Of a stretch of DNA of 64,000 nt, positions 15,243 through 58,170 are shown piece after piece. The position numbers and the translations under genes are program-made. Position 1 is the first letter of the stretch; each line of letters opens with the position of its first letter. Under the pieces are notes generated by a model. That model had not been told where the DNA came from. It saw nothing but the letters and a program-made list of their open reading frames with translations, and did no database searches. Origin of the DNA: Acanthochlamys bracteata (taxonomy: Eukaryota; Streptophyta; Magnoliopsida; Pandanales; Velloziaceae). The stretch lies in assembly GCA_019914995.1 (NCBI GenBank), contig CM034145.1, positions 1,798,001 through 1,862,000 on the forward strand. The letters run 5' to 3'.

Positions 15243-15440
15243 TTTAAATTTTTTTACTTTTTATCATCTTGATCAAGTGATTGGATGGAGGTGAATTCAT
15301 GATCCGATTGAGCTAAAATTTTATGGGTAAGTTTTTAACTCATAATTCTTCATATTCAACAGTGAAGATTGCATTTGAAAGTCATCCTGACCATAAACGT
15401 CGACAGAGTGTCCGAAAATACCCTTAATAAGGGAGTGTCC

Positions 15441-15443
<3 letters not shown>
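15243..15443. mobile_element. Solo arm of a snapback MITE, related to MITE I and E
   Basis: It matches the centre and right arm of the complete snapback element at 57619-57983 (tcatcttgatcaagtgat, aactcataattctt, agtgaagatt) and ends at a (TA)n tract. The left arm is missing. Confidence 0.65.
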
Positions 15444-15477
<34 letters not shown>

Positions 15478-15479
<2 letters not shown>

Positions 15480-16980
15480 ATAGGATGTATACACTCCCCC
15501 AACTGTAGATACTCTTACACTCCCATCTCTGATCGAACGGTTAAGATTTTATCCCGCTTGATGAGCGGCGGTGATCAACGCAAGCGATCGCGCGTTTCAC
15601 CCGATCACACTCCCCCGCTCAGCTCACTCGTTCTCATTTCTCTCTTCGAAATCTCTCTCCCGAGCTCCAATCTCTCTCTCCCGAACTGCTCTCGTCGTCG
15701 TCTCGAAATCTCTCTCCCTATCTCCGAGCAGATTTCTTTATCCCTGCAGACGAAGAAATCAATCCCGGCCTCGACGACGACGCCGACATCTGATCTCCCC
15801 CCTCTTCGATTTCTTTCATGAATTTGCTTAAACTTCCCTCAAATTCTTGATCTGTTTTCGGATTTTCGTTTAATCTTTTCTTTCTTGAATTTTTGCGATG
15901 ATTTTATTTTTGTTGATTCGGTTGATTTCACTGAAATTATTTTTGGTTGATTTTGTTGAAATCGAGATTTAATTTTTTAGTGACGACAGTAATTACATTG
16001 TTTAGGATTTCTATCTTGCGAAGATTGAATTTTTTTTTTAGCTTAGTTCTTCTGGTTCTCCAAAATTTTCTAGTCCTCTATAGAGATTTCTGTTATATTT
16101 TCTATTGTGCTTTCTGCTTTAAAGTTGGTGGCTCAGTTAGGGACAAAGAGGCAGCTGTGGAAGGAAAATATAACTGCTTCACTAGGGCCTTCCAGAATTC
16201 TGACAATATTTTTTGTTTCATCAAATCTTCACAGGAATAAGATTTGTGATGATGATGTTGTTAGAGTTCTTGAAAGGCCGTCGTCTGGTAGTTACAGTTT
16301 TTGTTGGTTGATTCTCTAAATTTTTCGTCTGTGTAGCTTAGATTATTTTTGCTATTTGTCTCTCAATTCTATCTTACGGAACTCTAATGCAAGTGAAATA
16401 AGAAGAAAAAAAAATGCTCGGATAGTATTTCTTTGTGACTGGTAGCCGAAAGAAATGTTCTTAATTCGATTTTTTTTTTATTTTATGTTGTATTGATTGA
16501 TTTGTTCTATTTGGTTTTAATTATGTAGTAACGAAATTGGAACACCACTGGTAATGGAAAGACTTGTTGATGGAATGTGCTTGATGAGTGCTGGATGCTA
16601 AAGGATATTGTTTTGTTTGCAACGGTGCAGCATTATCGGCATATGGATAGACCTAGCAGGTTATCTGGATGTTCATTACTGCAAAAATGCAATGTTATTT
16701 GGATGTTGTTTGAAGAATGCGGTGTTGTGGTTGGTTGGACAGAACCAGCAATTTGATCTTGTCTGACTGTGTACAATGACGAGTTATGATTGTATTAAAG
16801 TATGGAAATCTTTATGTAAATTATGGAATGATATTTTGAGTGTTGTGTAATTTGAAAATGTATTCGTTAAAATTTGTATGAAATGTTATCAGTTTTTTTA
16901 CTAGATCAATCCAGCTTTTTCTCAATGAAAAGTTATTTGAGCAATGCTATCATTTATTCTCAATGGCTGATGAATGATTA
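15478..16980 (+). repeat. Left TIR of MULE A
   Basis: Inverted partner of 20225-21524. The outer ~840 bp match closely. The inner part (from ~16320) is interrupted by non-matching stretches and includes repeated aatgttatca phrases at 16880-17030. Confidence 0.8.
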
Positions 16981-17364
16981 ATTAAAATGTTATCATTTCT
17001 CAATCTAGAATTGCTTCGAAAATGTTATCAAGTTTTACTTATATTTGTGTAATCAAAATTTATAAAAAATGGTTTATCTTTTAAATTTTAGGTAATCTAA
17101 TTAAATATAATAATCTTATTTAGATACTTTTGCTGTGACGTGCTCCATACTCCCTCTCTCGGTAACTTTCATGCTTCCCGCCCATACATCATTCTTCCCG
17201 CCATTTTTTTTCTTTTTTCTTTCTTTCTGTCTATCTGATAAGCAGTTGCACAACCAAACTCTTTACTATAATTCTCTTTTTGTCAGACACAGCAAAGAAA
17301 TTTTATTTCATTACAACAAAGCAAACTCTATGTTTTCAGAATTACAAAGCTCTTTGTTCTTTCC

Positions 17365-19834
17365 ATGGCCCATTCCACCGATATTGCATATGAAACAGAT
17401 AAAGCTAGCTGTTTTGTTTCAACTCCAGACATTACAATAAAGAAAGAAAAATCGCCTTTTTTAGGGATGATTTTTCCAAGTCTTCAAGCTTTAAAACAAA
17501 TGTATATATATTATGAAAAAACAAAAGGGTTTAGTGCCGTTATCTGAAGTACACAAAAAGAAAATTCAAATTTCGACGAAGTCACTAGTTGTCTAATGAC
17601 TTGTGACCGATTTGGAAATTATAAAAACTATAACAAGAACAAAACAGATGATGGGCCAGATGCATCAGCAAAACAGAAGAGAAAAGGAAATACAATAAAA
17701 TGTGGATGTCTGGCAAAAATAAGGTGGCAAAAGAAACTATTACTGGATTGTGGAAGGTGACGCAGTATACTGAGAGTCCTAATCACAATCTAGTTAGTCC
17801 ATCGAAGAGGATGCGTATGTCTGTTTGTAGATATATGCCAACTGCGGTTAATATATTAATTGACTTCTTTCGTGATAAAGGCATTCCAGTGAGTAAAGTT
17901 GCGGATATATTCGACGGACCACAGAATGGCCTCGATAATAGAGATTGTTGGAATCACTTAGAACCATTTAAGGAGTATAAAAAACCTATTAGAAGAGATG
18001 CCACTGCAGCACTAGATTTTTTTAAAAAAAAGATATAAAAGATCCACATTTTTTTTATGCAATCCAAATGGATAGCGAAGCAAGGGCAATAAATTTTTTC
18101 TGGATAGATGGCCGATCTCGTCTACAATTTTAGTATTTTGGTGATGTGCTATTTTTTGACACAACATATCGTAAGAATGTATATAAAATGCCATTTGTAC
18201 CATTTACTGGAGTTAACCACCATCTGCAATCAATTCAGTTTGGATGTGCATTACTTTTGGATGAGACTGAAAAGTTTTTTCAGTGGCTTTTTCAGACATG
18301 GCTTGCAGCTATAAACGGACGTGCTCCATCTTCTATAATCATAGATCAAGATAATGCTATGACTGCAGCAGTTGAAAAAGTATTTCCAAACACTCGACAT
18401 CGGTTTTGTTTATGATATGTGTTGAAAAAATTTCCTGAAAAGCTACCGCACATTTATTTCAAAAAGTCAAAGTTAAAAAAAGATATCAAAATGTGTATTC
18501 GGAAAAGTTATACTCTTAGTTCTTTTGAAATGAGATGGGAGGAATTGGTATGTACTATAACTTGCAAGAGAAGAAATGACTCTAAGGAATGTATGAAACT
18601 AGAAAAATATGGGTTCCTGTTTATCACTTAAACACCTTCTATACTGGCATGAACACTACAGGGCGATCTGAAGGTATGAATTCTGTTTATAGTAATTTTT
18701 TTCACTCAACTACAACTCTAAGAGAGTTTGTTTTGAAAAACGAGAAGTGTTTGGCTAAAATTGTTGAGAAAGAAAAGAAAAAGGATTATATTAGTGAGCA
18801 TTTTAATCGCATTGTCGATAGTTATGATTTTCTTTTGAAGAGTGCAGTTAATGTGTATACGAGAAATGTGTATGCTAAGTTTAAAAAAGAATTTGATAAA
18901 GCTCAAGCTGTATATGTCTTGTGTGAAGATGAAAAGGGAAGTGATGGCTACACAATTTATACTTATAAATCTCGAATGCTTGGTGATGAGCATTAGTGGA
19001 AGGTGACATTTAATCATGCCACAAAGCAAGGTTACTGTGAATGTAAAATGTTTGATTTTACAGGAATTCTTTATGGACACCTTATAAAGATTTTCCATTA
19101 TTGTGACATAGAGATACCGAATCACTTCATTCTTAAGAGACGGATGAAATGAGCTAATAAATATAGAGCTGAGTATGATGGTGGAGCAGTTCGTGGTCAT
19201 GAGAGTTCTGAACTATTGAGAACTACCCAACTCTTGAAGATCTCTAGTCAATTGTTCTATGAATTTGGTGAAGCAGATGATAGTTTCCAATTGATGTTGC
19301 AAACATTACAGGGATTATCATTACGGATTAAAGAAGTAAGAAAGGCTAAGGAAAGCTCACAAGTCAATTCATGCACTGCTAATGAGGGCTCACAAGTTTC
19401 AGTTGATGCATCATAAGTTCTACTATTGAATCCTAACATCTCACAGACTAAAGAAAGGAAAAAAGAAGGAAAAACTTATCGTGATACTAGTAGAATAAAA
19501 GGCGGTTTGGAGAAAACCGTTGCGAGAGCTAAAGTAAAAATATAGAGAAGATGTGTTTGTTGTAACAAAATTGGTGTTAAATACGACAAGCGAAATTGTC
19601 CTAAAAATCTAAATAAAAAGAAAAAAATAAGTAAGTATAATCATTACTTAGTTTTGATTCGCTATGCTAACTCTTGTTGGAATTCAAATTAAAATTGTTA
19701 TTTGCTAAATTTTTTACTTGGTAGTTATTGATAGAGATATTTATTAATTCATAGATGAAGATGATGCTGCTGTTGCTGATGATGATGAATCTATAAAGAC
19801 TGCTGAAGACATTAACACTGATGATGAAGTTTGA
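17365..19834 (+). pseudogene. FAR1/FRS-like MULE transposase A, decayed
   Basis: The order of remains is standard: FAR1 N-terminal region (PFLGMIFPSLQALKQMYIYY, 17365-17547), second half of the DNA-binding region (GLWKVTQYTESPNHNLV), linker (DGPQNGLDNRDCWNHL), MULE transposase core with [10 protein letters not shown] and IIIDQDNAM (18146-18415) which hold the first catalytic acidic residues, the segment YHLNTFYTGMNTTGRSEGMN, and a SWIM-like motif (CECKMFDF ... YGHL). The last cysteine of the SWIM motif is Tyr here. A Cys-rich knuckle (RRCVCCNKIGVKYDKRNC) and an acidic tail (DEDDAAVADDDES) follow, the tail after a short intron (~19632-19757, exact ends uncertain). At least two frameshifts and several stops interrupt it. 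Such proteins cut and join MULE ends; this one cannot be made. Confidence 0.85.
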
Positions 19835-20224
19835 ACAGAGGTTCCCTTTCACTGATAAGAAGACACTGATGATGACATTTGATTGTAATATTTTGTATGA
19901 GCTTATGATAGTGCCCAGTAAATTTTTGAAGTTTTTGAATGTAAAGATGGGTAAGAGTTGTGTTGTGTTTAGCAAATATATAAACAGCAGCAATGTTTAT
20001 GGATAAAACTCTCTATTCATGTTTTTTTCTTCAAAAATTTCAGTTGAGTTCATTTTGTATTCAAAACATTTTAGTTGGGTTCATTTAATTGCATTGATGT
20101 TATGATGCTGTTTCAAATCATAATATATATTTCCATTCACTCATTAATTTTCTTTATGGACAATATTGCTTATTTCTAGAGAGTTATACAACACCAGAAC
20201 TTGACAGAGAAGTGCTAACAGTTT

Positions 20225-21524
20225 ACATTCATCATACACTGAAAATAAGATGTAGCATTGTTCAAATCAGTTTCTATTGAGAAGAGCTAGATTGATCTAG
20301 TCAAAAATTGATAACATTCCATACGAAATTTTTATTGTACATTTTTAGATTACACAAACACTCAAAGATCATTCCAGAATTTACAAAAACATTTTCACAC
20401 ATCCATAACATCTTTTAACACTAGCACAACCTTTTCAGAAAATAAAACAATATGTTGATGTACACATCCAGATAACTGAAGCAATCTTCAAGTAGAGCAC
20501 AAAGACTTGCTGGTTCTATCTAGCCAATATTGCGTTGCATTCCTGCATGGATCCAGTACTCGTTGTATTCCTACAGTCCTGCTGACTACAACATCCATAA
20601 GTATAATATAACAACACAATCTGTTAATACATCAATACACCGATTTCAACAACATCAACGAAAATTCTAAATAGATCAACCATCGTGCAACAAGCTACCA
20701 GGTTCAAGAATCAACCAACAAAAATTGTAACTATCAGACGACGGCCTTCCAGAACTCTAACAACATCATCATCACAAATCTTATTCCTGCGAAGATTTGA
20801 TGAAACAAAAAATGTTGTCAGAGTTCTGGATGGCCCTCGTGAAGCAGTTATCTTTTCCTTCCACAGCTGCCTCTTTGTTCCTAACTGAGCCACCCAACTT
20901 TAAAGCAGAAAGTACAGCAGAAAGCATAACAGAAATCTCTATAGAGGACGAAAAAATTTTGGAGGACCGGAAGAACTAAGCTAAAAAAAAAATTCAATCT
21001 TCGCAAGATAGAAATCCTAAACAATGTAATTACTGTCGTTACTAAAAAATTAAATCCCAATTTCAACAAAATCAACCGAAAACAATTTTAGCGAAATCAA
21101 CCGAATCAACAAAAATAAAATCATCGCAAAAATTCAAGAAAGAAGAGATTAAACGAAAATCCGAAAACAGATCAAGAATTTGAGGGAAGTTTAAGCAAAT
21201 TCATGAAAGAAATCGAAGAGGGGGGAGATCAGATGTCGGCATCGTCGTCTAGGCCAGGATCGATTTCTTCGTCTGCAGGGACAAAAAAATATGCTCGGAT
21301 ATAGGGAGAGAGATTTCGAGGCGGCGACGAGAGTAGCTCGGGAGAGAGATTTCGAAGAGAGAAATGAGAACGAGTGAGCTGAGCGGGGGAGTGTGATCGG
21401 GTGAAACGTGCGATCGCTTGCGCTGATCACCGCCGCTCATCAAGCGGGATAAAATCTTAGCCGTTCGATCAGAGATGGGAGTTTAGGAGTGTTTACAATT
21501 GGGAGAGTGTATACATCCTTCCCC
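20225..21524 (-). repeat. Right TIR of MULE A
   Basis: Reverse-complement partner of 15478-16980. Closest similarity is 20700-21524. Confidence 0.8.
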
Positions 21525-21548
21525 ATATATATATATATATATATATAT
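21525..21548. repeat. (TA)n tract between MULE A and MITE B
   Basis: Uninterrupted AT dinucleotides, the only sequence between the two elements. Confidence 0.9.
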
Positions 21549-21924
21549 GATATAAACACTTTATGTGCTATATGCACTCCATCGATTTCTCCGGTCATAT
21601 TTGGCCGTAGAGACTTCCAAATCCGATCGTCACCGTTGAATAAGTAAAACTATGAGTTGTAAACATGCTTACAGAATTTGATTAAGATGAATCAAATAGT
21701 AAAAGTTGACAAAATATATAGTTTAGTTTTTGAGTCATCTTGATCAAGTGAACTAGATGAAGGTCGATTCGTAATCCGATTGAACTGAAATTTGATAACC
21801 ATATTTTTCAACTCATAGTTTTACATATTTAACGGTGAAGATCGGATTTGAAGGTCTCTCCGGCCAAATATGGCCGGAGAAATCAATGGAGTGCATATAG
21901 CAAATTTAGTGCCTATATCCTATC
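21549..21924. mobile_element. Snapback MITE B
   Basis: About 375 bp that reads almost the same on both strands: gctatatgcactccatcgatttctccgg... near the left end is mirrored by ccggagaaatcaatggagtgcatatagc near the right end. Subterminal phrases (actatgagttgtaaa / tttcaactcatagt) are also mirrored. The outer right end reads ggatataggcacta on the minus strand, like the other members. It lies between (TA)n on the left and (CA)n(TA)n on the right. No coding capacity. Confidence 0.85.
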
Positions 21925-21928
21925 ATAT

Positions 21929-21960
<32 letters not shown>
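21925..21960. repeat. (CA)n(TA)n compound microsatellite between MITE B and element C
   Basis: About 22 bp of CA repeats followed by about 10 bp of TA repeats. Confidence 0.85.
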
Positions 21961-21961
<1 letters not shown>

Positions 21962-22858
21962 GGGAGGGATATAGGCACTCCCTCCCCTCTCGGGCACTCC
22001 GGCACTCCATCGTTTCAGGCCATCGGATCAAAATCTGACGGACACGATTAAAAGAGAGAGAACACGCTTAGAGAGGCTTACGGAAGGTTAGTTTGGTAAT
22101 TTCATTCGACATTTCTTTCCTTCGCAGTTTCTCTCTCTCTCTCGTTCTTTTCGTTTCTTCTTCCTCGCAGCTGCGCCTCTGCTAATTTCTCCCCACGGCC
22201 CTGCTCTCGCTCACCTCCTCCTACCTTCAATTCATTCAGATCGTTGCCGCCGCTCCGACAATCGAATCTGCGATCGCGGCTGTGAACCCTAACATTGCCG
22301 CTGCCGATCTCGTTCCTTCGTCCTTCTTTCTTTTTCTTTTTTCTTTCTCTCTTTTTGAATAAATTTAGTTGTCATAGTTTTGCTTAATAATCCCTAAAGA
22401 TTTGATCTTACTCACTGTTATGACTGCTTGAATTAGCAGAGAAGATAAAAACTGGTTTCTCATTTAGTCGTGTTTTCGTGAAGGTGAATAGCCAGAACCA
22501 GAAGTTTTTTTTCTCATGTTTAGCTTATAATGTTTATTGTTGTTTCTCCACTAGAGAAGCTTGTTGATGTTTCTCAAGGATCATCCCTGAAAGGAAGATT
22601 TGTTTGATGGTGAGTATGTGCAAAAAACAACTAGGAAGCACTTTGTTGATGCTTCCTGAATTGTTCTGAATTTCTATTTGTCTATACGCATGGCTTACTT
22701 TGTAACAGGAGTTTCTGCTAATATTCATTAATATTGGTGTAGGAATTAATGTGCATTTTTATTGTGCTGTAGAGAATGAACGAGCATTTGATCTCCTTTA
22801 CCTCATAGTTTTAACCTTTGCGTTACCATTTTCTGTGCCAGATAAAAAACAACAAACT

Positions 22859-23194
22859 ATGACCTCAAGGAAAGAACCAACTGGTGGTCGTTCACCGCAT
22901 GCAGAGAGACTAAGGCCTCGTGATAGTGCAAGAGATGTCCGAGCAGACAAGCATAGGACTATGTCTAGGAGGAGGAGCTCATCTGGATCACGTTCAAGAT
23001 CGAGATCAATGTCAAGATCATCACCTAATTTGCCATCTCAAAGCCCACAAGCAAAGAGAAATCAAGGTCTCCATCCAACAGAAGAAATCAAGGCTATTTT
23101 TTATGTCAAGTTTCAAGTGAGAAAGTGTTTGGCAAAAAATTTACAGAAAATTTTCCTAATTTTTTCACTTCATGTTTATGGTGCATTCATTTGA
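22859..23194 (+). pseudogene. Captured Arg/Ser-rich (SR-like) gene fragment inside element C
   Basis: From the ATG at 22859 the frame reads about 111 residues to 23194. The first ~75 residues look like real host coding sequence: MTSRKEPTGGRSPHAERLRP, then RRRSSSGSRSRSRSMSRSS with RS dipeptides typical of splicing-related SR proteins or nuclear RS-domain proteins, then SPQAKRNQGLHPTEEIKA. After about 23100 the frame loses this character. No RNA-recognition motif is present, so it is only a piece of a gene. It begins just inside the left TIR, which could act as its promoter. The source gene cannot be named from this much sequence. Confidence 0.6.
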
Positions 23195-23878
23195 ACTTTG
23201 AGTAACTGAGCTATCAATGTTATCAATGTATAGTAAAAATGTTTACCGGCAATGCATTCACTTAAAGTTAAGAGTAATTATGTTGTCAATATATAGTGAA
23301 AATTATCATGTTTATCGGAATCAATGCTATCAATGTACAATGACAATGTTATCATGTTTATTGGGATTCAATGTAATCAAATGTATAATGGAAATGCTTT
23401 TCAGCTGATACATTCCAGAAAATTCTATCAAGATTCAGTGGTTGCTAGATTATAGTTGAACAATGCTATCAGACATTCACTAGTTCCCCACTTCTCTTTT
23501 AACAGCTCATATAACTTCCAAAACATGCATAAAACTGAGAAACATCTACAAGCATCATTTGCTACGGGAAAGGTTCAAACAAAACTTCAATGTATTGAGC
23601 CTAACAGGAAAAGATCATGATTTAGAAGGATAATCTAGTTGTGTTCAAAATGCTGAGTACATCATGAACCAATAACTGCTGAGTACATCATGAAACAACA
23701 AATTATGATCTGCACTAGAGCAACATTGCATCTATTGTGACACAGAAACTAAGCATTCCAAACTGGAACCTCCTGCATCACACTAGCATGGTCTGAGCAG
23801 CCTACCCAAATTCCATCTCAATGCCTTAAATAACAGTAAAATTTTGGAAGCCCTCTACTTCATTCTACAACTATAGAT

Positions 23879-23968
23879 TCATCTTCCTCGTCTATGTAGA
23901 AGCCTGTACAATGGCATGTCTTCTAAACGCTGAATATCATCTAGCATGAGCTCCCTCTCCAGCTGCCG
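23879..23968 (-). pseudogene. Possible second captured exon inside element C
   Basis: On the minus strand an AG acceptor (catgacatag) is followed by a 29-residue frame ending in a stop: RQLERELMLDDIQRLEDMPL then YRLLHRRGR. It has the balanced charge pattern of a genuine C-terminal exon rather than random AT-rich DNA. Family unknown. It could come from the same source gene as the RS fragment only if the capture was rearranged, because the strands are opposite. Confidence 0.35.
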
Positions 23969-24991
23969 CTATGTCATGTTCATTACTGACTGGAATTAGA
24001 CAAAAAGAAATGGTGCATCATATAAAAACTTGACTGAGGACCTAACAGAAGGTGCAGAGTAAACTGACATACATTAAAATCTATATACAATGCATGCATA
24101 GCAAGCCATTGCTAATCCATCATCTTGAAAGTTATGCAGTAAAGGAGATCAAATGCTCGTTCATTCTCTACAGCACAATGAAAATGCACATTAATGCCTA
24201 CACAATTATCAATAAATATTAGCAGAAGCTCCTTTACAAAGTAAGCCATGCATATAGACAAATAGAAATTCAGAACAATTCAGGAAGCATCAACAAAGTG
24301 TTCCGGTAGCTTCTTGCACATACTCACCATCAAACAAATCTTCCTTTCATGGATGATCCTTGAGAAACATCAACAAGCTTCTCTAGTGGAGAAACAACAA
24401 TAAGCATTATAAGCTAAACATGAGAAAAAAAGCTTCAAAGGAAAACACGACTAAATGAGAAACCAGTTTTTATCTTCTCCGCTAATTCAAGCAGTCATAA
24501 CAGTGGGGAAGATCAAATCTTTGAGGAATATTAAGCAAAACTATGACAAAGAAATTTATTCAAAAAGAGAGAAAGAAGAAAGAAAAAGAAAGAAGGATGG
24601 AGGAACGAGATCGGCAGCGGCGATGTTAAGGTTCACAGCCGCGATCGCGGATTCAATTGTCGGAGCGGCGGCAACGATCTGAATGAATTGAAGGTAGGAG
24701 AAGGTCGGAGGAAAAGAGAACGAACTCGGCGTGGGGGAAGGAGGTGAGCGAGAGCAGGGCCGTGGGGAGAAATAAGCAGAGGTGCGGCTGCGAGGGAGCG
24801 AGGAAGAAGAAATGAAAAGAACCAGAGAGAGAAGAGAAACTACGAAAGAAAGAAATGACGAATGAAATGACCAAACTAACCTCCCATAAGCTTCTCTAAG
24901 CGTGTTCTCTCTATTTTAATCGTGTCCGTCAGATTTTGATCCGACGGCCTGAAACGATGGAGTGCCGTACAGAAAAACGAAATATATATAT

Positions 24992-25204
24992 TTTATCAAA
25001 TTTAACTTTTTATCATTATGATCAAGAGTTCCGATGGAGGTCGATTCGTATTCCGATTAAGTTAAAATTTTAATAACATGTTTACAACTCATTGTTCTCC
25101 ATATCCAACGGTAGAAATTAGATTTGGAGATCTCGCCGGTCACTTTTAACTGGCATGTGCACCAATGTGCTTATAAAAATATCATATGTTTTTATCCTAT
25201 TCCC
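24992..25204. mobile_element. Solo arm D of a snapback MITE
   Basis: Matches the centre and right arm of MITEs E and I (tttatcattatgatcaag, ttccgattaag, caactcattgttctccatat) and ends at (TA)n. The left arm is absent; the break is in the AT-rich centre, next to the right end of element C. Confidence 0.65.
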
Positions 25205-25215
25205 TATATATATAT

Positions 25216-25638
25216 GGGGAAGGGATAGGAGCACTCTAATTTTTATGCACACTCCAGCGCACTTCACGACCGTTTGTGGCCGTGGAAACCTTCAAATCCA
25301 ATCTCTACCGTTAGATATGTAAAACTACGAGTCGTTAACATTCTGACAAAATTTCATCTCGATCGGAGTACGAGACCTTCATCCGATCATTTGATAATGA
25401 TGGCACAAATATTAAAAGTTAACAAGATATACATATCTCATGTTTTAGTCATCTTGATCAAGTGATCGGATGAAGGTCTATTCATTTTCCGATCGAGATG
25501 AAATTTTGTCAGTATGTTAACGACTCGTAGTTTTTCATATCCAATGGTAAAGATTGAACTTGAAAATCTCCATGGCCACAAACGACCGTGGAGTGCGCTG
25601 GAGTGTGCATAAAGATTAGAGTGTACATATCTCTTCCC
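25216..25638. mobile_element. Snapback MITE E
   Basis: About 423 bp, nearly palindromic. Left: agggataggagcactcta ... cacgaccgtttgtggccgtgg. Right: ccatggccacaaacgaccgtgg ... tgcataaagattagagtgta. The centre is AT-rich. (TA)n borders both sides (25204-25215, 25639-25658). No coding capacity. Confidence 0.88.
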
Positions 25639-25658
25639 ATATATATATATATATATAA

Positions 25659-27000
25659 GGATTGGATATAGGCACATTCTATTCTATTAGGGATATTATT
25701 CACATTCTATCCTTCGCGCTTGATACCTGCTCGATTCGCAATAGAGAGTCTCTGTTTTGTATTTTGACCAAAATTTTCGCACGTTTTCGTCTTCGGCTTC
25801 CACTCCGGCTCGACTTCGTAATTGCGGCCGAAATTGAGCTCTCCATAGCTCGACTTCGCAATTTCAAATTTCGGTTCGGTTGTTAAGATTGATTTCTGCC
25901 CGAGTTCATATTCGATTGGCACATTATTTACTGTTGGCATATGGTGTTGATTCAACGATTATGATGCAGACACTTAATCAACGAACGGCTGTAATGCGCT
26001 CTAGCGTTGTAACCTATGTACATCCCGAATGTGCTCAATTGAAGCATTCCTCTCAAAAATTTTCGATCTCCACTCTACAATGGAGTGTTGTGTTCCGAAT
26101 TTTCTGCATGATTTATTTTAATTTTTGTGACTTTGTTTTAACTTTCACTTTTACTGAGTTGTTTTAAATTTCACTGATTTGATTTTTGGGTGTTTTGGAT
26201 TTATTTTATGGGTCTTGGTTTTGATTTATATGCTATTGGTTTCGATTTATAATATATTACTTTTATAGTGTATTAGATAGTTTGGCCGGAAGAATTTGTT
26301 GAATACATGGTTGCTGAAACTGGAAAGGTATGTTGGTTTTCTATATCACAGTTGTTGCTAAATATTGATGAGATAATGATGAGGCAGCAAGATTGCTCTC
26401 TATTTGCTTGTTTTGGAAAATTGTTGGAAATATAACTCTCTATTGTGAAATGTTAGCTGATGTTGAAAATACTGATGATGCAATGATGAAATTGTAAAAT
26501 TATATTCTGTTCTTTTTTTCTCAATCGGCGCTATCTTTTAATTACATGGGAAGGCAATAAGGATGGTGGCAAATACTAGCGGCACCACTACAGTTGTGAT
26601 TAGAGAAGGCAATATAGAGAGGTAGAGAACAATGGATGGTTTCAAACAGTCCTTTAAATCTGAGTGATTGATTAAAATCATTGTCTTTAAGCCTCCCTCC
26701 TCTTTCTCTCTCTAAATTGTCTTGATGTTGATGGATCTATCTCTTGAAATATAAGTTTCTATAGTAAATAACGAAATGTTGGCTATGTAACTCTGTATTG
26801 TGAAATATAAGTAGGTGTGAAAATATATTTCTTTACTATGAAATGTAATCAGATCTGAAAATGTGCATGTGCTATAGTCAGATACTAAAAATGTAACTAT
26901 GGTGAATTGTCATCAAATTTGAAAATGTAACACTTTTCTGAAATGTAACAAGATGCTTGAAATGAAATTTCATTTACTTCTATTTCTTGTCATTGGAAAT
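25659..27000 (+). repeat. Left TIR of MULE F
   Basis: Inverted partner of about 30340-31589. Includes many GAAATGTAA-like short repeats at 26740-26990. Confidence 0.7.
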
Positions 27001-27180
27001 AATTTGTTGTAAAAGATTATGAGATTGTTGCTGGATGATAAAACGTTCTCACTATTGTGATAAACTATACAGCAATATACAATAAACTATTACATGCCAT
27101 AATAAATCATTTATAATAAAAATTATTATACAATTACAATAAATTATCACATATCATAGCCAATTATTATTTTAATAAAA

Positions 27181-43630: not shown

Positions 43631-43632
43631 AT

Positions 43633-47581: not shown

Positions 47582-47759
47582 AATTCCAAAAATAACAGTG
47601 CTTTGAAATTGAAAGCGAAAAATGCAACAACAAACAAAAGAGAGAAACAGAAGGAAAAAAGAGAATGAGCGTTTGAGCTTTTACTGGAAATTGCAAACGG
47701 TGTTTTTTTCCCGCACATCACTAACACTCTCCTGCCAGTGCTGTTAACATATATTGAAA

Positions 47760-47900
47760 TAACAAAACTGCCATCTATAATTTTTTATAGAGTTTTTGAT
47801 GGTTGCTCTGTATAGATTGTTTTAGAGTTTTTGCTGTTTGCTCTATATAGATTGTTTTACTGTTTGCTCTGTATACGTTGTTTGAGCAATTCTGAGCATT
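47760..47900. repeat. Short repeat array (gctctgtatagattgtttta) inside MULE G
   Basis: Three or four degenerate ~35-bp units lie between the transposase start and the right TIR. Confidence 0.65.
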
Positions 47901-48199
47901 CGCATCCATGCAACATTTCACTGCAGAACCACCATCCATTCGAAACAAACTTCCATGAAACATTTCAACAATACATTCTACTGTGATAGTATTACATTCA
48001 CTTTCAAAGAATTTCAATTCTATTCATAAGTTTGAGACAGCGGTATTACATTCGGCATTCATACATTTGGAAGTCGTAAAAATTCTCTTCGTTGAACAAT
48101 CAACATTCAAGAAACAGGCAAAAGAAAAAAGGAAAGAAGAAGAAGACAGCATGAACGAGCACCACATCTGACACCAGGCGTTGCTGATCACCGACTGCA

Positions 48200-49131
48200 C
48201 CCACAAAAAAAAAATTTACAATGTGAAAAAAAATTAGATTATTGATCGCTCACATCACTTTCAATGTGAATGTTAAAAAATCCTTCATGGAATCACATAC
48301 CTGCTATAGTTCAAAAATCTCACGCGAGCTTTCTGGCAAGCTCTCCAGGGGCAAGCCTAAAAAATAAAAACTGTTGAACTTGTTAAAAAATTTTAAAAAG
48401 CATAGAACGTTAGAAGAGTAATTCTGCAATAAAAACATTTTTAAAAATTTACCTGAAATTCGCTCGCCAGCCGGCTTTCGAGCGCTCTGGCCGACGGCGA
48501 GAACAACGGCGAATTCCGAAACTGAACGCATCAGAAGGCATAGAAGAATGAGGAGATTAGAAATTAACAGTTGGTTAGCCCTAAAATCGATCGTCGGCCG
48601 GCGAACGAACGGTCTGGCCGCGACGAACGATTTAGGACTAACGGCGAGGAAATTAGAAATTGAAGGTGATAGAGTGCATAGAAGAAAGAGGAGAAGAAGA
48701 ATTCAAGGTTCGCTAGCCCTGATTACGGATCGTCGGCCGGCGAACGAGCGCTCCGGCCCGACGAATAAAAATCTAGGGTTTGATGCAGGAAAGGAAAAAA
48801 TTGAGAGAGATTAAAGGAAGGAGAAGAAGAAGAGGAACAATTTAACCTGCGTAGGTCAAGAATGAGGCGCGGCTACGAGAAATCGACGCCGGAGAGGGGA
48901 GATGGCAGCGCGAAGTGTTGAGAGAAAAAAAAAACGAGCAGGCGAATGAGCTCGTCTACGCGTGAGGGGGTGAAGAAAATTCCGAGTGAACAGACGTATT
49001 TGCCCCCCCGCGTTTGTTTCTCTTCAGTACACCGCGCGCTCGCGCATGGTCCGTCGGATCAAGATCCAACGGCCCCCGCGCTGATGTGCGCGGGGTGTAC
49101 GCGGGGAGGGGATGTGCGCACATCCCCTCCC
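48200..49131 (-). repeat. Right TIR of MULE G
   Basis: Reverse-complement partner of 31609-32516. The last 28 bp (49104-49131) are the same perfect palindrome as at the left end. Confidence 0.88.
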
Positions 49132-49143
49132 ATATATATATAT
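49132..49143. repeat. (TA)n tract between MULE G and remnant H
   Basis: Twelve bp of alternating AT. Confidence 0.85.
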
Positions 49144-49859
49144 GTATGCGAGCGCGATGTGCGCACATAATTCTGTGTGCGCACATCGCGCACATCAATT
49201 GTGGACAATCGAAGTTGGATCGACAGTCCATAGTTGCTCACGTGAGTATGCTTTACCGGATCACTTTTGAAGGTCATGATCATAATTTTGTGTGCCTTTC
49301 AACAATGTTAAGAGGTGTTGGGCTGCGGCAAAGTTTTTAGTCCAACTTTCATCTCCTCCCTTCTTCTTCTTCAATTTTCCCTTAAAAATTTGAGTTTCTT
49401 GCATCCGACCGCTCCAAACTCTAACTTTGTCTACCTCAGTCGGAGCATTCAATCTCCGACCGGCGATCCAAATTAAATCATATAAATCGCATATTTTCTT
49501 CCTCCTTCTGCGGCTTCTACCGATTTTAGTTTCTTCAATTGCCGCGTTAGCTTACAGTCGGTTGTCGCTGTAAGAACATCGATCGTCGGTTGGGTAGCTA
49601 GTAAGTGTTTCATCAATCTCTTGTGATTAATTTCATTGATTTTTTCAAATTTTACTAATATTTAAGTTTTATGATTTTTTCTGAATTTTTGTAGGGTCGT
49701 AACTACTGTTTTCGACTTTGAGATTTTCGGATTGCATCAATCTCTTGTGGTAGGCTTTCTTACTATTTTCGCAGCATTATTTTTCCTGTTAACAACAGTT
49801 GATTAATGTAGCTTGAACAAACTGAACATAACAAATTATTTTGTTTGTTTTTTCTATAT

Positions 49860-51090
49860 TACGACATAAAATACATCAGTGAACTCCAGAGCTCACTAAA
49901 AAGCTCACTAGTAGGAGGCCACTGAGCTCACTAGTTTTCGGGCCAGTAAGCTCACCGATCTCCGGCCAAAATTTATTTTTTTTTGTTTTTTTAACAATAG
50001 TTGTATAATATAACTTGAACAAATTGAACATAATAAAATTATTTTTTTTTTCTACACTGCAACTTAAGAAATTTCAGTGAGCTCCAAAGCTCACTGGCCA
50101 CTTGTCAGTGAGCTCCATAGCTCACTAGCCGTAAAGATAGCAATTCGAATATATGAATCGGTTCGGGTCGACTCATATAATGACGGGGTCAAAATTGTTC
50201 AACCCTAATCCGATCTATTTATTTATATGGGCCAAATTATCAACCCTAAACTAATCTATTTATAACTGGGTTAAATTCGGATCGACCTATTTAATAAATA
50301 AAATTATTAAAATAAAAATTATAATATTGATTTCTAACAATAATATATATAAATTATTAATTATGATATTTTAATAAAAGAAAATTATTAATTTTGATAA
50401 AATTTATAAATTAAATAAAAATTAGTTAAATTATAATAAATTAAGAAATATATATATATATATATATATTAAATTCAAATATTTGCTATTATTTTTTAAT
50501 TATTAAGTAATATATATTATATAAATAGTTAAATAGGTTAAATAGATCAATTTCGAGTCAAATCGAACCCGATCCGAACCCATTTAAAATTTCAGATTAA
50601 CTTCGAGTTGACCAGAAATTGACCTGAACCCATCTAAGCTTGATCCGAACAAAACTTTTTCGGGTCGGTTTCGCGAGTTGGGTCGAAAATTTGCCACCAC
50701 TAGTGAGCTCACTGGTCTCCAGCCAAAATTTATTCAAAATAAAAATTTGTTTTCTAAATAACAGTGAGCAATTGAACATAACAAATTATTTTGATTTTTC
50801 TTTAATGTACAATGCACATTAAGTAATTTCAGTGAGCTCTGGAGCTCACTGACCTCCTTCTAGTGAGCTCTAGAGCTCATTGGCCTACCAGTGAGCTCAC
50901 TGGTTTCCGGCCAAAATTCAACTAAAAGAAAATTTCTTTAAACAACAATGAGTAATATATCTTGAACAAATTGAACATAATAAATTGTTTTGATATACTT
51001 TTCTTTTTGATACAATTTCAATGAGTTTCAGAGCTCATTGAAGAGGTCACTGGCTTATTTCCAATGAGCTCTAGAGCTCACTGCAGTTTA
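49860..51090. repeat. ~190-bp tandem array with gtgagctcnagagctcac palindromes
   Basis: Four units, marked by ttgaacataa(c/t)aaat at about 49824, 50020, 50777 and 50965. Each has one or two AGTGAGCTCNAGAGCTCACT-like palindromes and a ccggccaaaattta-like phrase. The larger gap between units 2 and 3 is an inserted MITE (50140-50697). Confidence 0.8.
50140..50697. mobile_element. MITE inserted in the tandem array, distant hAT-MITE relative
   Basis: About 555 bp with ends gatagcaatt and tttgccaccac and subterminal phrases (cgaacccgatccgaacccat, gggtcgactcatataa) like those of the ~850-bp hAT-type MITEs. It includes a (TA)n tract at 50449-50469. A clean 8-bp duplication is not seen (cactagcc versus cactagtg at best), so the class is tentative. 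Confidence 0.55.
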
Positions 51091-51135
51091 AAAAAATGTC
51101 AAAATATATTCATCATCCTACTCTAGTTGAACAAT

Positions 51136-51936
51136 TCAGTCTTCATTTTGAATATCTTCATCTTCACTTGTATTTTTGTCTTCAGAATTATCTCTATCAA
51201 TAACTAGCAAGTACGAGCGTGATGAAAAATGTCAAAATCTGGAAAAAAAAAAATATTACTCGTTACGAATTAAAACTAAGCAAATGACTAAATTTACTTG
51301 TCCTATTCTTTCTATTTGAATATTCAGAACAATTTCGTTTGTCATTTTTTACACTCGATTTATTAAAGTACGCACATCTTCGGCCTGCCTTCGCTTTGGT
51401 TCTTGCTGTGGCTTTTCTTAATCTTCCTTTTATTTTAGTATATCCTTACAAGCCTTTCCTTCTTTATTTCTTTTCTTTGTTTGTTATATGTTGGGAGCTA
51501 AAAGCAATACTTGAGAGGCATCAACTGAATCTTGTAAGTTCTCACTGTGCATAAATGAATCGATGACTAGAATCTTATCCTTATCAATAGTCCTCTTTAG
51601 TTCCTTGAGCAACATTATTGTTTCTTCCAATATTTGCAATAAGATTTTGTATCCTTCATTTATTTCAGCAACTTCATAAATTATTTGATTAAAAATCATC
51701 TATAGTTATTTAGTTCTTAATAGCTCAGCATTCTCATGGCCACTTATCGAACCTCTATCATTCTTACCTCTATATTATTAGTACATTTTCTCCGCCGCCG
51801 AAGAATAAAATGATCGGATATTTTTATATCCCGACTCTAAAAGACGTTCATAAGAAATTTTCCTAAACTCAAAAAATTTGCATTTACAGTTACCTTCTTT
51901 CTGTGGCTGAATTAAATTTCACCTTTCACTCAAGCC
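51136..51936 (-). pseudogene. FAR1-like transposase H, C-terminal piece
   Basis: It includes the region before the knuckle (NQIIYEVAEINEGYKILLQI, 51484-51699), knuckle remains and an acidic tail (EDKNTSEDEDIQNED) ending at a stop at 51136-51138. An intron of roughly 100 bp separates knuckle and tail, as in copies A and G. Continues at 54881 across the hAT insertion. Confidence 0.75.
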
Positions 51937-52274
51937 TAGTGGTACACAAATGGGCAGGACCAAACGGGCCGGCTCGTAGCCCGATCAACTAGCTCGGATG
52001 AAGGCCCGCCCATCCGGCTCAGTGAATAGTTAGAGGATCGGGTCAGGCCGGTCTAACGGGTAGGACAGGCCGAGTATGCCAGCGCGTCCGCCCGGTGCTG
52101 TTCCGTTGACTTTGACTTGGTCAATATTAACCGTTGACAAGGTCAACAAAATAAATACCAACGGTCATGCTGACGTCATGACCGTTGAAATAGCAGCCAA
52201 TTGTAGTGTTACCGTTGGTTGACGTCACACCGTTGGCTGCAACATTTTTTTCATTCAAATTTTTACCTATAAAT

Positions 52275-53072
52275 CATAGTTGTAAGAAATCGGACCGGAC
52301 ATCGAACCGAAAACTGTCCGGGTCACAGTTTTCGGATTGACCCGATGAGTTAACCGATCGAACCATCGAGTCAATAATATTAAAACATTTTTAAGTAATA
52401 ATAACAACAATCACAGTAAAAAATCTACCGCCATCATGGCACAACAATAATAATAACAGCAGTAACCGTTGGAAAAAATTAGAATATTTTTATTATGTCA
52501 TTACTATCAACAATAACAGCAATAATAATCACAGCGAAAATTAAAGTATTGCCACCATTACATTACCACCACCAACAACAATAATAATAACAATAAAAAT
52601 TTATAATAAAAAATATTTGAAAACAATTAGAGATTAGAAAAAAATAAAATCATAAACTATATAAAACATAAAAAAGACATAACTATCTTTTTTAGGTATA
52701 CATATTTGAGTCTAAATATTTTACAATATAAAAATTTAAAAATCACTAACAATTGATATTTATAAATAAAATATAATTAATTATATTTTTGTATTATCAC
52801 ATTCAAATGCAAAATCTAAACTACATATCATTTTTTAACATAGGACTATTAATAATTATTTTTTATTAAATATATCATCAATTTAATTTTTTTAAAATTT
52901 TATTTAATCCGGTTTGATTCGGGCGGACGGGTCGACCGGATGAAACGGGTTAAACCGGATCGAAATGGGTCGATTGAATAAACGATTTTTTCACAAATCC
53001 GGACCAGTTTACAGTCCAGGTCGACAATTTTCGGGTCGACCTGGACGGTTCGGTCAAGATCTAATAACTATG
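52275..53072. mobile_element. MITE nested in the hAT element, 8-bp duplication CTATAAAT
   Basis: 798 bp. Ends CATAGTTGT and AATAACTATG are inverted, with GC-rich subterminal blocks (gaaatcggaccgg ... gacggttcggtcaag). A perfect 8-bp direct repeat CTATAAAT flanks it (52267-52274 and 53073-53080). The 8-bp duplication suggests hAT-type mobilisation. No coding capacity. Confidence 0.82.
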
Positions 53073-53089
53073 CTATAAATACATCACAA

Positions 53090-54600
53090 ACTCAACTTCA
53101 ATTCAATACGGATGGTTCGATAAGTACTTGGTCTTATGATTGTAATGTAACTAGGAAATCTCTTACCCGTATGATTTGTGATATTGGTTTACCTGTTAAC
53201 TTTGGTGAGTCATTCTTTATGAAAAACATATTAAAAGAGCATATTGTCCATAATTTTATAAAGTTAGTAAAACAACTAATAGAAGCGATATTATTACTTA
53301 TTACAATAAAACGCACACTATATTAAAATCTGAATTAAGTTCATTAAATTTTTCTATTGCATTAACATCTTATATTTGGAGCGGTAGAGCCAAACAATAT
53401 TATTTAAGTATTGTTACACATTATTTAGATTCACAATAGACTATGCAAAAAAGAATTATTAGTTTTATACTTATTGATTCCACACATAATGCTAAAAATA
53501 TTTCTGAGCGCATTATAAGTATAGTTAAAGAATGGGGCATAAACAATCGCATTGTCTCCATCACCCTAGATAATGCTTCAACAAATACCAAATCAATTCG
53601 ATTTCTTGAGATGGAGATAAGCTCATACATGGAAGGAATTTTACTATATCAACGTTATGATTGTCATATCATCAACTTGACCGTACAATCAGGTATGCAA
53701 CTAGTAAATGAACATATTAATGATATTCACGTTACTATTTTTTGGATTACTAATTTAAACCAACGATATAAGAATGGGTAATAATATATTTACTGAAACT
53801 CATTGGATTATTGCTGAAAAAGTTATAAAATTTTTAGAAACTTTTTATGGTACTACTGTTTTATTATCTGGTATTTACTATCTTACTTCTTCATTAGTTT
53901 TATATTCCATTCTTAATATACCTACTATGTTACATTCACATATAATCGATAAATTACTTGGACCTATATTCACAACAATAACTAAAAAATTAAAAAAATA
54001 TTAGTCCGATATTGCTCTTTTATATTATTTTGTAGTTATGTTAAATTCTAGATTTAAATGTATGTATTTTACGAATACTCTTATATATATTAGTATATAC
54101 TTAGATATTTTTGATATTCAATTGCAAATAACTAATGCTCGTAACAAGCTGTACGAAGTTTATGATCTTTATAAAGTTAGGCTTAGTAACTTGCGGAATC
54201 AACAACAACAACAACACCGGCACAAACTCATCAAAGTAAGAAGAAATAAACGATCAATTCGTCTTTGATCTCCATCAAATCTGGTTCAAATTTAACACCA
54301 TCTTCAACTTCAAACAGCAGTCTTTTTCGGATTTGAAGAAATATTTTGAAGGAGATACTGTCATTGTAGAAGGCAATGAAAACCCAAAAAATTTTAATAT
54401 TTTGAACTGGTGAAAGACACATTCAATAAGATATTAAGTACTTTCTCAATTAGAACGTGATATTTTGACTATTCCTGTCTCAAACGGTGTCTTCAGAATC
54501 GGCATTTAGTATAACCGGAAGGATAATTGAAGAACGTAGAACACAACCTACTAGTGAGATGATTGAAGTGCTAACTTGTTTGAAAGATTGAGAACTTGCA
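53090..54600 (+). pseudogene. hAT (Ac/RICESLEEPER-like) transposase relic
   Basis: Pieces in order: RKSLTRMICDIGLPVNFGES near 53155; the core segment KRIISFILIDSTHNAKNISE, EWGINNRIVSITLDNASTNT and YDCHIINLTVQSGMQL (53443-53781); ETHWIIAEKVIKFLETF (53774-54004); MLNSRFKCMYF (54038-54268); and a dimerisation region NFNILNW, RDILTIPVSNGVFR near 54390-54500. The BED zinc finger was not found, and several stops and frameshifts interrupt the frame. Family assignment rests on the order of these segments. No active enzyme can be made. Confidence 0.8.
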
Positions 54601-54888
54601 GTTAAAAAAATACAGCATACAACTCACAATGAAGACCTGATTGAACAATTTTCAAAATCATTTTTAAATGAAAATATTTCAAGTACAAATTCAAATGTAT
54701 AATTATATACATATTGAAATTTGTAACATTTTTTTATATTTAATAATAATTTTTAAAATTATTTTTTAATTTTTTATCATTTTAATATTTTATTTTTTAT
54801 CAAATTTGTAACATTGAAGACCCGGGTCAGGCCAGTCCGATTCGGGTGGTCTCTTTGGCTCACCTGTTTTTACACCTTTACTCACACC

Positions 54889-56190
54889 GATCATCTTCCA
54901 CTCCAAATTTATAAATATAAGTCGTATATCTATCACTACCATTTTCATCATCATGTAAGATATATTGAGACTGAGCTTTCTCAAATTTTGATTTTGAACT
55001 TATTATCGTATATAATTTTGCTGCACTTTTTAAGCCATCGGAGTATTCTACAACGCGATATAAGTCTTCAGACGCATAATCCTATTTTTTTAATAATTTT
55101 ACTTAAACATTTCTCATTTTTAAATACAAACTCCCGAAAGTTGTTGTGGGATGAAAAAAAATTTTAAAAATACCATCCATACCTTCAGAACATTCAATAG
55201 TGTTAGCACCGCACAAAAATTATTCAAATGATAGAAAGGTGTTCACTTTTGTCGAATTTCGTATATTGCTAAAATCCTTTCATTTTCCTACAACTCATAT
55301 GCACACGTCAATTCCTCCTACCTTGTTTAAAAAATGTTAGGATTAAAAATTTTTCGAATACACGACTTAATATCTTTTTTGAATTTTGACTTTTTGAAAA
55401 AAATATGTGAAAATTATTCAACAAATTTTTTTCATAATATGTCATAAACAAAATTTATGTCTTGTATTTGGGAATATCTTTACAACGACTACAGTCATAT
55501 CTCTATCTTGATTTGCGATGATTAAAGATAGAGCACGTCTCCCCATAACTGCAAGTCATGTATCAAAAAGACATCAAAAGGATTCTTCAGTCTCATCTAA
55601 AAGTAGTGCGCAACCAAACTAAATTGACATGTTGGTGATGGTTAACTACAGTGAATGGTGCAAATAGCATCTCATAAATATTTTTGCAGTATGTGGTATT
55701 GAAGAATCCAACGTCACTAGAATACTGATACTGACTACGTGACCTTCCGTCTACCCAAAAAAAATTATTGCTCTTAAGTCTTCATCCATTTGAATTGTAT
55801 AAAAAAGTTTGAATCTTTTATACTTTTCATTTTAAAAAAGTTCAGCGCTGCGATGGCATCATAACTAATAAGCTTCTTGTACTCCTTCAACCAATACAAA
55901 TGGTTCCAATAATTTCTGTTATCAAAACCATATTGAGGACTGTTAAATACATCGGTAATCTTAGCCACGGGTATACCTTCATCCCCAAATGAATCAATCA
56001 AATTTTTAGTTGCAACGGGCATATTTCTGCAAATAGACATGCGTTTTTTTTTCCAGATTAACTAGATTGTAATTGTGCTGACCATTATAATCCATCACTT
56101 CCCATAATCCATTAGGTCGTTTTCTCACCCTTATTGTTACAGACATCCGTATTTGACCGTCCTCTTACTTCTTTTTTTCTGCTTATTAAC
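54889..56190 (-). pseudogene. FAR1-like transposase H, N-terminal and central pieces
   Basis: Continues the piece at 51136. It keeps KYGC, DYNGQHNYNLVN (56040-56160), ICRNMPVATKNLIDSFGDEG, FNSPQYGFDNRNYWNHLYW (55774-56040), core traces near 55500-55700 and a YTKNV-like segment near 55010. It is more decayed than copies A, F and G. The first FAR1 exon is missing at 56190. Confidence 0.75.
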
Positions 56191-56540: not shown

Positions 56541-56652
56541 TAAAATTACAGTTTGAAATTCTAAAAATTAGCCGCGTGCATATATAATATACCGGCACAA
56601 TGCATAATATCAACTGTACCGCTATCCTGCTTACATATATAAATGTATATGA

Positions 56653-56830
56653 GGGATAGGGTGTAATTGGCCATATAGTGTGCGTAGAAAGTTTAAAATC
56701 TAATTTACATCGTTGAAGATTAAGAACTACGAGTCAAAAATACGATAATAAAATTTTAACTCAATCAGATTATAAATCGATCTGCATCCGGCCTCTTAAT
56801 CAAGATCAATTTTCGCGATATACCCAAAAA
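56653..56830. mobile_element. Solo arm J of a snapback MITE (left arm)
   Basis: It starts gagggatagggtgtaatt after a TA-rich stretch and follows the left arm of MITE I (cgttgaagattaagaact, aattttaactcaatcaga, catccggcc, ttaatcaagat). It stops near the AT-rich centre; the right arm is missing. Confidence 0.65.
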
Positions 56831-57618
56831 AACAATAGTTTCCTCATTCCCGCCGAATCAATCACAGTCATCACATCATAGCCGTTTTGCTTACCAATAT
56901 AGAAAAAAATAAAAAATTTAAGAAAATTCAAAAATATAATCTTTATACTGGATATTTATTTTGGGTTCAAAAGCAATCAAACTTACTCAAACAAAGTAAA
57001 ATTGTCACCCGAAGGTTTAACGAAATGTTTCAAACAATTTGGAAAATTTTGATCATTAGACTAAAAAATCGAAATAGAAGTTCATCAGAACGTTTTTTCA
57101 AAAGAAAATTGATCACAAAAGGAAAATTAATTTTCTTTTGAAATAACTTTCAAATTTGAAAGAAACGGGAAAAAACTAAAATGCGAAAAAAAAGGAAATC
57201 AATCGTAGTAAGAACTAACTAAATGAAGAAAGAAAATAATCGAAAAGAAAGAACAAAAAAAGTCGATCGAAGAAGAAAGAAAATAATCAATTCGACAAAA
57301 GAAGATCCAGTGAATGCGAGAGAGTGTGTTTGGAGTGGTCCAGCCATAACAACAAAAAATTGAGAAGGAGAAGTGAAATTTTAGGCGCTTGTCAGTGCCG
57401 TGTGGCGAATTTCGCAAATCGAGGAGCAAATGAGAGAAACAAGAAAAAGAGAGAAAGAAAGAAAGAGAAAGGAAAATAAAACATAAAAAAGACACAGCAC
57501 TAGTAGAAATAGAATTTCTATCTTGAATAGTGCTTCTGTATCAGCTAATAGATAAGAAATCAGCTGTAATATAACGTGCCTTAAGTGCCCCAAATATTAC
57601 AGTACTCATTATATATAT
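56831..57618. other. Unassigned stretch, possibly a diverged MULE right TIR
   Basis: Purine-rich, with gaaagaaa-type runs at 57160-57490. Read in reverse complement, parts (cacttctccttctcaatttt, ccactccaaac) resemble the left TIR region of MULE H, but the match is weak. No gene. Confidence 0.3.
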
Positions 57619-57982
57619 GGAGAGGGATAGGAACACTACCTTCTCGATTTATAGTTGGGGTGATCTCCAAATTCAATCTCCATCTTTAGATATGAAGAAT
57701 TATGAATTAGAAATCTACTCATTAAATTTTAATTCAATCAGACCACGAATTCACCTCTATCCGGCCACTTGATCAAGATGACAGAAATGATAAAACATAT
57801 ATATTTTTAACTTTTCTTACTTTCTGTCATCTTGATCAAGTGATCGAATGGGGGTAAATTCGTAGTCCGAATGAGCTGAAATTTATAAGTAGATTTCTAA
57901 CTCATAATTTTTTATATTTAATAGTGGAGATTAAATTTGATGATAACTCCAATCATAAACCAGAAAGAAAGTGCCCCTATCC

Positions 57983-57983
<1 letters not shown>
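57619..57983. mobile_element. Snapback MITE I
   Basis: About 365 bp, nearly palindromic: left agagggataggaacacta and ggccacttgatcaagatgac, right gtcatcttgatcaagtgatc and gaaagtgcccctatcc. Bordered by (TA)n on both sides (57611-57618 and 57984-58021). No coding capacity. Confidence 0.87.

Positions 57984-58021
<38 letters not shown>
57984..58021. repeat. (TA)n tract right of MITE I
   Basis: About 38 bp of TA repeats, among the longest in the window. Confidence 0.9.
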
Positions 58022-58028
<7 letters not shown>

Positions 58029-58170
58029 TTCGTGCACATTGTGCATATTGAATCTCAGCCGTCAGATCATTATCCAATAGCTGATATTCGTGCAAATAAG
58101 TCAGCATTTCAAATCCAGTTTGAATGGCACATTCATAATTTCGCATGCCCTTCTGACGGGATTGAGTAAA
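58022..58170. mobile_element. Possible left end of a further MULE-like element
   Basis: Directly right of (TA)n, the order gtgcacattgtgcatattga ... ttgaatggcacattcataattt ... gcatgcc follows that of the left end of MULE H (gcgcacatcaattg ... ttgaaggtcatgatcataatttt ... gtgtgcc) in the same orientation. No partner end or transposase was found. Confidence 0.35.

Follow-up and report, generated by a model that had tools for sequence, protein, structure and literature searches.

A chain of Mutator-like relics and foldback MITEs joined by (TA)n tracts, and its probable growth by repeated insertion

Results and discussion

Organization of the locus

The stretch of DNA that was analysed (64,000 nucleotides, hereafter the window) corresponds to C20:1798001-1862000 of an assembly of 195.5 Mb in 557 contigs. 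A chain of Mutator-like elements (MULEs) and MITEs, most of them joined by TA tracts, was described between positions 15243 and 58170 of the window. It begins with a solo right arm of a foldback MITE (15243..15443, plus strand), the terminus of which adjoins a (TA)17 spacer (15444..15477). In BLAST, this arm was 81-82% identical to MITE I of the window and 84.7% identical to positions 193-368 of the 395-bp M1, so that its nearest relatives are of the I/M1 type. MULE A (15478..21524, plus strand), which has further copies elsewhere, is bounded by terminal inverted repeats (TIRs) of ~0.8 kb that are 91.5% alike and contains a broken FAR1-type transposase (~17653-19659, detected by tblastn with the transposase of G). 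It is followed by a (TA)12 spacer (21525..21548), the foldback MITE B (21549..21925; loop ATATATA; arms 87% alike over 119 nt) and a (CA)11(TA)5 spacer (21926..21959), the TA part of which occupies 21950-21959. Element C (21960..24967; TIRs ~0.8 kb, 86% alike) has a truncated 3' terminus. Next to it lies solo arm D (24973..25204, plus strand), the right arm of an M9-type MITE, which aligned with positions 193-424 of the 424-bp M9 at 84% and carries a loop TA run at 24982-24991.

The right half of the chain is dominated by large elements. After a (TA)5 spacer (25205..25214), the foldback MITE E (25215..25640; arms 81% alike) and a (TA)n spacer at about 25639-25656, MULE F was found on the minus strand (25657..31589), with a broken FAR1-type transposase at ~27681-29577 on the same strand. 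A (TA)9 spacer (31590..31607) leads to MULE G (31608..49131, minus strand; TIRs ~0.9 kb, 91.6% alike), and a (TA)6 spacer (49132..49143) leads to the MULE-like H (49144..56146, minus strand), which is represented only by its left terminus and by transposase relics at 51138-51900 and 54887-56146. The solo left arm J of a MITE (56650..56840, plus strand; BLAST) and the foldback MITE I (57618..57984; loop CATATATAT; arms 76% alike) follow. The chain had been taken to end at 58,170, but after the (TA)18 spacer (57985..58020), a further MULE-like terminus, K, starts at 58021 (58021..58100, plus strand, the end being nominal). By eye, it resembles the terminus in copy L091 of repeat X, which is described below; neither a distal end of K nor, by BLAST, a second copy of it was found in the window.

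The boundaries of A, B, C, E, G and I were borne out by inverted repeats in BLAST and in an inverted-repeat comparison within the window. Ten TA tracts of at least five units, (TA)≥5, lie in 15243-58170, and eight of them are no more than 4 bp away from the annotated end of an element, whereas random placement of ten tracts gave 0.076 on average and at most 3 (100,000 trials). Therefore, it may be concluded that the TA-linked chain is real. The two remaining tracts are the one in the loop of D and one inside H (50448-50469). The order of elements as a string of beads, proposed in the sequence-only reading, held for most neighbours and needs correction at three places. First, the supposed clean TA link between C and D was not found. 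Instead, C lacks ~40 bp of its 3' end, D consists of a right arm only (both seen by eye in the sequence), the TA at 24982-24991 is D's own loop run, and the junction is apparently a fusion by deletion. Second, BLAST in the window did not reveal a right TIR of H, and the stretch from 49.1 to 57.6 kb appears to be weaker as a clean chain for this reason. Third, J does not lie in a TA setting like that of its neighbours, since no clean TA tract was seen by eye in its flank. Considering that H has no right TIR and that C lost an end in the fusion with D, the chain appears less regular than first described.

Content of the large elements

Transposase pieces of G were found within 45260-47381 (minus strand) and contain a FAR1 domain (Pfam, 1.6e-8) and a SWIM domain (9.7e-5). 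The frame is broken between them and the MULE core falls in this broken stretch, so that the domain scores are those of FAR1 and SWIM only. Broken relatives of this transposase, with 36-70% amino acid identity piece by piece (tblastn), were detected in A, F and H, and the pieces in A were interrupted by stops and frame changes. The named protein relatives (24 hits in total) were mostly FAR1-RELATED SEQUENCE proteins from other plants, several of them with the MULE core PF10551. Judged by these matches, the large elements are best classified as Mutator-like (MULE) relics of the FAR1/Jittery type, with Jittery being used as in the paper on MuTAnT and not on the basis of a direct comparison. No intact transposase was identified in A, F, G and H, the frames of which were broken or relic.

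Long TIRs of ~0.8-0.9 kb are present in A, C and G, and those of F are short and partly eroded. When C was searched by tblastn with the G transposase, no match was obtained. A serine- and arginine-rich open frame occupies 22842-23107 of C and gave no Pfam hit at E ≤0.01; by eye, it is possibly a captured piece of a host gene, as in Pack-MULEs. The MITEs B, E, I and D/M9 are of the foldback type with related arms (BLAST). A terminal GGGNAGG-AT motif is similar by eye between MITE and MULE ends, and no long common TIR was found by BLAST in the window.

Several further features were observed within large elements. G is 17.5 kb long because a Copia-type retrotransposon (~34618-45255, RVT_2 hit) was inserted into it. 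The two end repeats of this retrotransposon (~1.6 kb) are 91.6% alike; therefore, the insertion is not recent. A long T-rich array of TTTTTTCACTG-like units lies in G at 33701-34422, and H contains at 53100-54700 a sequence that by eye resembles a hAT transposase relic. At C15:6158413-6168000 (L064, L068, L070, L082), the outer flanks of an F-type MULE copy are mutual inverted copies (542 bp, 98%).

Flanks of further copies in the genome

At first look, there were 1241 genome candidates for E and 1567 for I, and 40 of each were scored. An alternating TA run of at least 8 bp was found within 25 bp at 54 of the 58 ends of 29 E copies (the E of the window, L001, being excluded), and a run of at least 12 bp at 44 of these ends. 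Among 11 copies of A, the corresponding numbers were 16/18 and 11/18 ends, and one A copy, on C18, had TA on neither side. Thus, copies of E and A elsewhere in the genome mostly lie in (TA)n and not in ordinary sequence, as the proposed targeting of such tracts had implied.

Searches with the E-type terminus gave a similar picture. The terminus preceded by twelve A/T bases (pattern W12) had 489 genome matches with at most three mismatches in total; without any flank condition, 150 matches with at most one mismatch were obtained, and the reversed patterns gave 0 in both searches. Inspection by eye of the 28 exact flank-independent termini showed a perfect alternating 12-bp TA flank at 19 and one with a single interruption at 4; the other 5 comprised 2 with other AT-rich flanks and 3 that were missing from the W12 match list. 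Of 376 TA-tract edges, 91 had an element terminus, versus 56 of 2,500 for other AT runs, a comparison biased by the use of segments chosen beforehand for elements; the TA base rates likewise derive from the window and from loci selected because elements are present in them. A fitted test of E ends (see below) replaced a de novo element finder, the list of which (33 items) was mixed with palindromic TA/TG repeats.

Linkage between elements was also frequent outside the window. By eye, a match to a small MITE library started no more than 110 bp away at 25/58 E ends and 8/18 A ends, although at three of these 25 ends (L007, L020, L026) the matched library element had been derived from the very neighbour concerned. 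By a second criterion, 28/58 E ends and 7/18 A ends were linked. The chain in the window might be attributed mainly to tandem or segmental duplication or to exchange between TA tracts and not to separate insertions, all the more since two E copies are adjacent at C20:5634926-5635796 and since an F copy on C13 and, by eye, another on C12 are separated from a G-type terminus by TA, the same arrangement as in the window. However, neighbours in the window belong to different families, with full-length A, B, C, E, F, G and I each present there once (BLAST), and elements also sit singly in copies of repeat X. Duplication or exchange is thus very unlikely to have been the main source of the chain.

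Empty and occupied TA tracts

Repeat X, which by eye looks like a MITE of another kind, has an inner (TA)n of its own. A total of 172 genome candidates were obtained at first look, and 40 of them were scored. Three copies, found via the elements that they hold, contain E on C8, F on C13 and A on C4; on C8, E is flanked by both halves of X. Ten further copies, ranks 2-11 of the search, were taken regardless of insertion. Four of the ten were empty, with the TA tract running into the right half of X, in three, judged by eye with one side visible, the tract adjoined a MULE-like or MITE-like terminus, and the remaining three showed TA alone within 201 bases. Empty sites with a TA tract, which had been expected at orthologous loci if the tracts are targets, were thus found at paralogous ones. 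An automated empty-site search over the element-holding loci was swamped by MITE-to-MITE matches. The copies of X (L091-L100; L033:1068-1282) can be used directly as a collection of empty and filled sites.

Because empty X copies have long TA tracts and other X copies have elements, it may be concluded that such tracts exist without an element and that elements occur in them. This finding bears on the opposite view, that the TA belongs to the elements, being carried or generated by their ends, and not to the target. The presence of TA at most element ends agrees with that view. It is contradicted by the empty X copies, in which the tract is present without any element, by opposite registers within the single family E (see below) and by copies without TA (L022; A on C18), and a TA of element origin is considered extremely improbable.

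Register of the insertion junctions

Target duplications could not be read within the window since its tracts are pure repeats. The length class of a duplication can be read from the junction bases even so: in pure TA, an odd duplication leaves equal bases at the two junctions (AA or TT), and an even one leaves unequal bases. Nine perfect TA bases on both sides were found in 14 of 30 E copies. All 14 were odd, with AA in 8, TT in 6 and unequal bases in 0, the right end of two of them (L011, L016) having been fitted with four mismatches; the score of 14/14 leaves out six E copies for which there was no indel-free end fit and ten with imperfect flanks. Among these ten, exact duplications of 9 bp were present in L009 and L022, of 10 bp in L003 and of 7 bp in L029, and the other six, one of which (L025) has no TA on the right, had no exact duplication of 7-12 bp. 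In a looser fit of the E copies, AA was obtained in 9, TT in 9, AT in 2 (L003, L024) and TA in 1 (L009), and in nine copies one side had either no A/T base or no end that could be located. L024, which could not be fitted without indels, is thus even in the looser fit only. End pairs taken by eye from the W12 matches were odd at C2:7014173, C5:7175855 and C20:1721088 and even at C5:8934751 (L018). For MULE A, two odd and two even pairs were read by hand from ends that are eroded or split, and the ends of F were too eroded for such a reading.

The use of both registers, together with the rarity of even cases, favours ordinary MULE cut-and-paste transposition with a 9-bp duplication. According to an alternative given for maize TAFT (PMC5907723), insertion occurs at a very short TA site, with a 2-bp or other even duplication, and the flanks expand later by slippage. 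Slippage surely acts here, as the length of the TA tracts at element ends varies widely. However, an even duplication predicts A at one junction and T at the other, and none of the 14 E copies in perfect TA had this configuration; furthermore, empty X copies already have long TA tracts, and the duplications of L009 and L022 are of 9 bp. Expansion from a short site is therefore a very improbable origin of the tracts.

The second model was proposed for SaTar elements, in part of the description of which some flanks do not fit duplications (PMC5907723); in it, circles with microsatellite filler integrate into (TA)n by homologous recombination. The fusion of C with D indicates that deletion or recombination does occur in chains. 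Nevertheless, to yield AA in 8 copies, TT in 6 and no even case, the circles would require odd filler in both phases, and the exact 9-bp duplications at L009 and L022 would be left unexplained. The circle-and-recombination model is unnecessary here for the footprint of E and, for the chain, quite improbable. Taken together, the flanks of copies elsewhere, the tracts of X and the registers support the cause put forward in the sequence-only reading, namely, repeated insertion into existing (TA)n. Considering that the cut-and-paste and circle-plus-recombination models stand side by side in print, it is of use that the junction register separates insertion models from sequence alone, even where duplications are unreadable, and that it can be applied in any genome with such elements.

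Insertions in MITE loops and solo arms

A copy of MULE A at C20:3779088-3785056 was found to have an M9-type arm on each side, the two arms meeting at the loop TA; when joined, they aligned with positions 9-397 of the 424 positions of M9 at 78%. At C20:5634694-5636850, the order is E left arm, TA, complete E, TA, complete E, TA and partial E right arm, after which come TA, an M9 copy and, beyond a further TA, the beginning of a G-type MULE. The joined outer E arms aligned with E 1-327 of 425 at 80%. At these two loci, elements inserted in a MITE loop split the MITE into arms.

An alternating TA run of at least 8 bp was present in the loop of 27/28 E copies versus 0/112 arm tiles, the background being 833 of 20,000 random 90-bp segments outside the chain. 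Single copies of M9, I and B have a short TA run in the loop too. Considering the loop run of E together with the loop-nested insertions, it may be concluded that the loop is a third target. The earlier statement that each insertion creates two new targets was therefore correct for the two flanks and an undercount for MITEs. A further reading, which seems rather improbable, is that the foldback MITEs of this lineage host their own kind, each copy keeping a loop run of sufficient length for the 9-bp cut and offering three landing sites, so that chains would grow from inside as well as at the edges; in its boldest form, this idea would have the loop run selected as a safe landing pad.

The derivation of all solo arms from loop insertions was considered and rejected, as D looks like a deletion product. 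Among 21 solo arms outside the window, TA was found on the loop side in six by script and in a seventh, on C4, by eye; M5 was excluded from this comparison since its length of 822 bp makes it a probable double element.

Proposed origin of the chain

The chain is most probably a stack of separate cut-and-paste insertions made by several families of FAR1-type MULEs and by foldback MITEs, all strongly preferring (TA)n; we give this reading a probability of about 0.86. The preferred targets would be (TA)n tracts of ~9 bp or more, within which the transposase would cut with its normal stagger (9 bp, sometimes 10). Each insertion would be left between two TA tracts that serve as the next targets, and a MITE could also be hit in the middle, at the TA run of its loop, and be split into two arms. 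Later deletions would remove spacers and arms, as may have happened between C and D. The MITEs would presumably be moved by a FAR1-type MULE transposase, and every element of the window would have arrived by such an insertion, in an order that can be proposed only by deduction.

Comparison with known systems

The sequence-only reading regarded a chain of MITEs mixed with kilobase-scale MULEs as unusual. Such chains were already described in guayule and rice, where, in the part of the SaTar report drawn on here, several MULE-type families lie in (TA)n and form mixed chains, some clusters including larger MULEs of the autonomous type (PMC5907723). The same text gives 10-bp duplications outside microsatellites and empty TA sites in rice indica, finds no element interrupting another in more than 300 clusters and notes that flanks are often inconsistent with duplications. 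The chain studied here shares with SaTar its microsatellite flanks and the linkage of unlike elements. It differs from SaTar, as far as described there, in having loop insertions at two loci (C20:3779088-3785056 and C20:5634694-5636850), in having registers that fit an odd duplication and in carrying four transposase-bearing relics within 43 kb.

MuTAnT of Medicago comprises MULE MITEs and a Jittery-like transposase, with (TA)n targets and with 9-bp duplications at copies outside TA (PMC4486113). In the portion of that report used here, empty sites contain TA repeats, 20 copies 'carried nested insertions or rearrangements', the nested item being left unspecified, and chains are not described; the published TIR mask, GGGGTTTGCTAGAACA, is by eye unlike the termini found here. 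The pineapple Ac-mMITE, from a monocot, lies in (TA)n with 9/10-bp duplications, and 46.1% of its full-length copies are clustered (PMC8449440). It differs in that, in the text considered, no related autonomous element was found and the clusters are called non-nested. Carrot MiM MITE families reside in TA stretches by a targeting route called unclear, and the part of that report drawn on here (PMC8227079) differs in making no mention of chains or nesting.

Thus, the published sections cited already describe MULE/MITE insertion in (TA)n and clusters, together with empty TA sites and with duplications of 9-10 bp at copies outside TA. Neither a register test nor a loop-nested copy was found in the consulted parts of PMC4486113, PMC5907723, PMC8449440 and PMC8227079. 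Chains as such are known in other plants; in this genome, the footprint left by insertion and the break-up of older elements can be observed as well. The loop insertions indicate that the reported rule of non-nesting has exceptions and account for some of the solo arms. Rice Micron and maize TAFT elements reportedly also lie in (TA)n, a likeness by description and not by sequence.

Surroundings of the chain

A U-box gene was found at 4713-6980, the best-scoring named relatives of which are from palms and Dioscorea (50-53% identity), which makes a monocot the probable source. Four 64-bp tandem units with 98% matches occupy 14636-14892, immediately to the left of the chain. Furthermore, a repeat of ~850 bp is present in three copies (2690-3522, 59488-60335 and 61557-62411), which lie on both sides of the chain.
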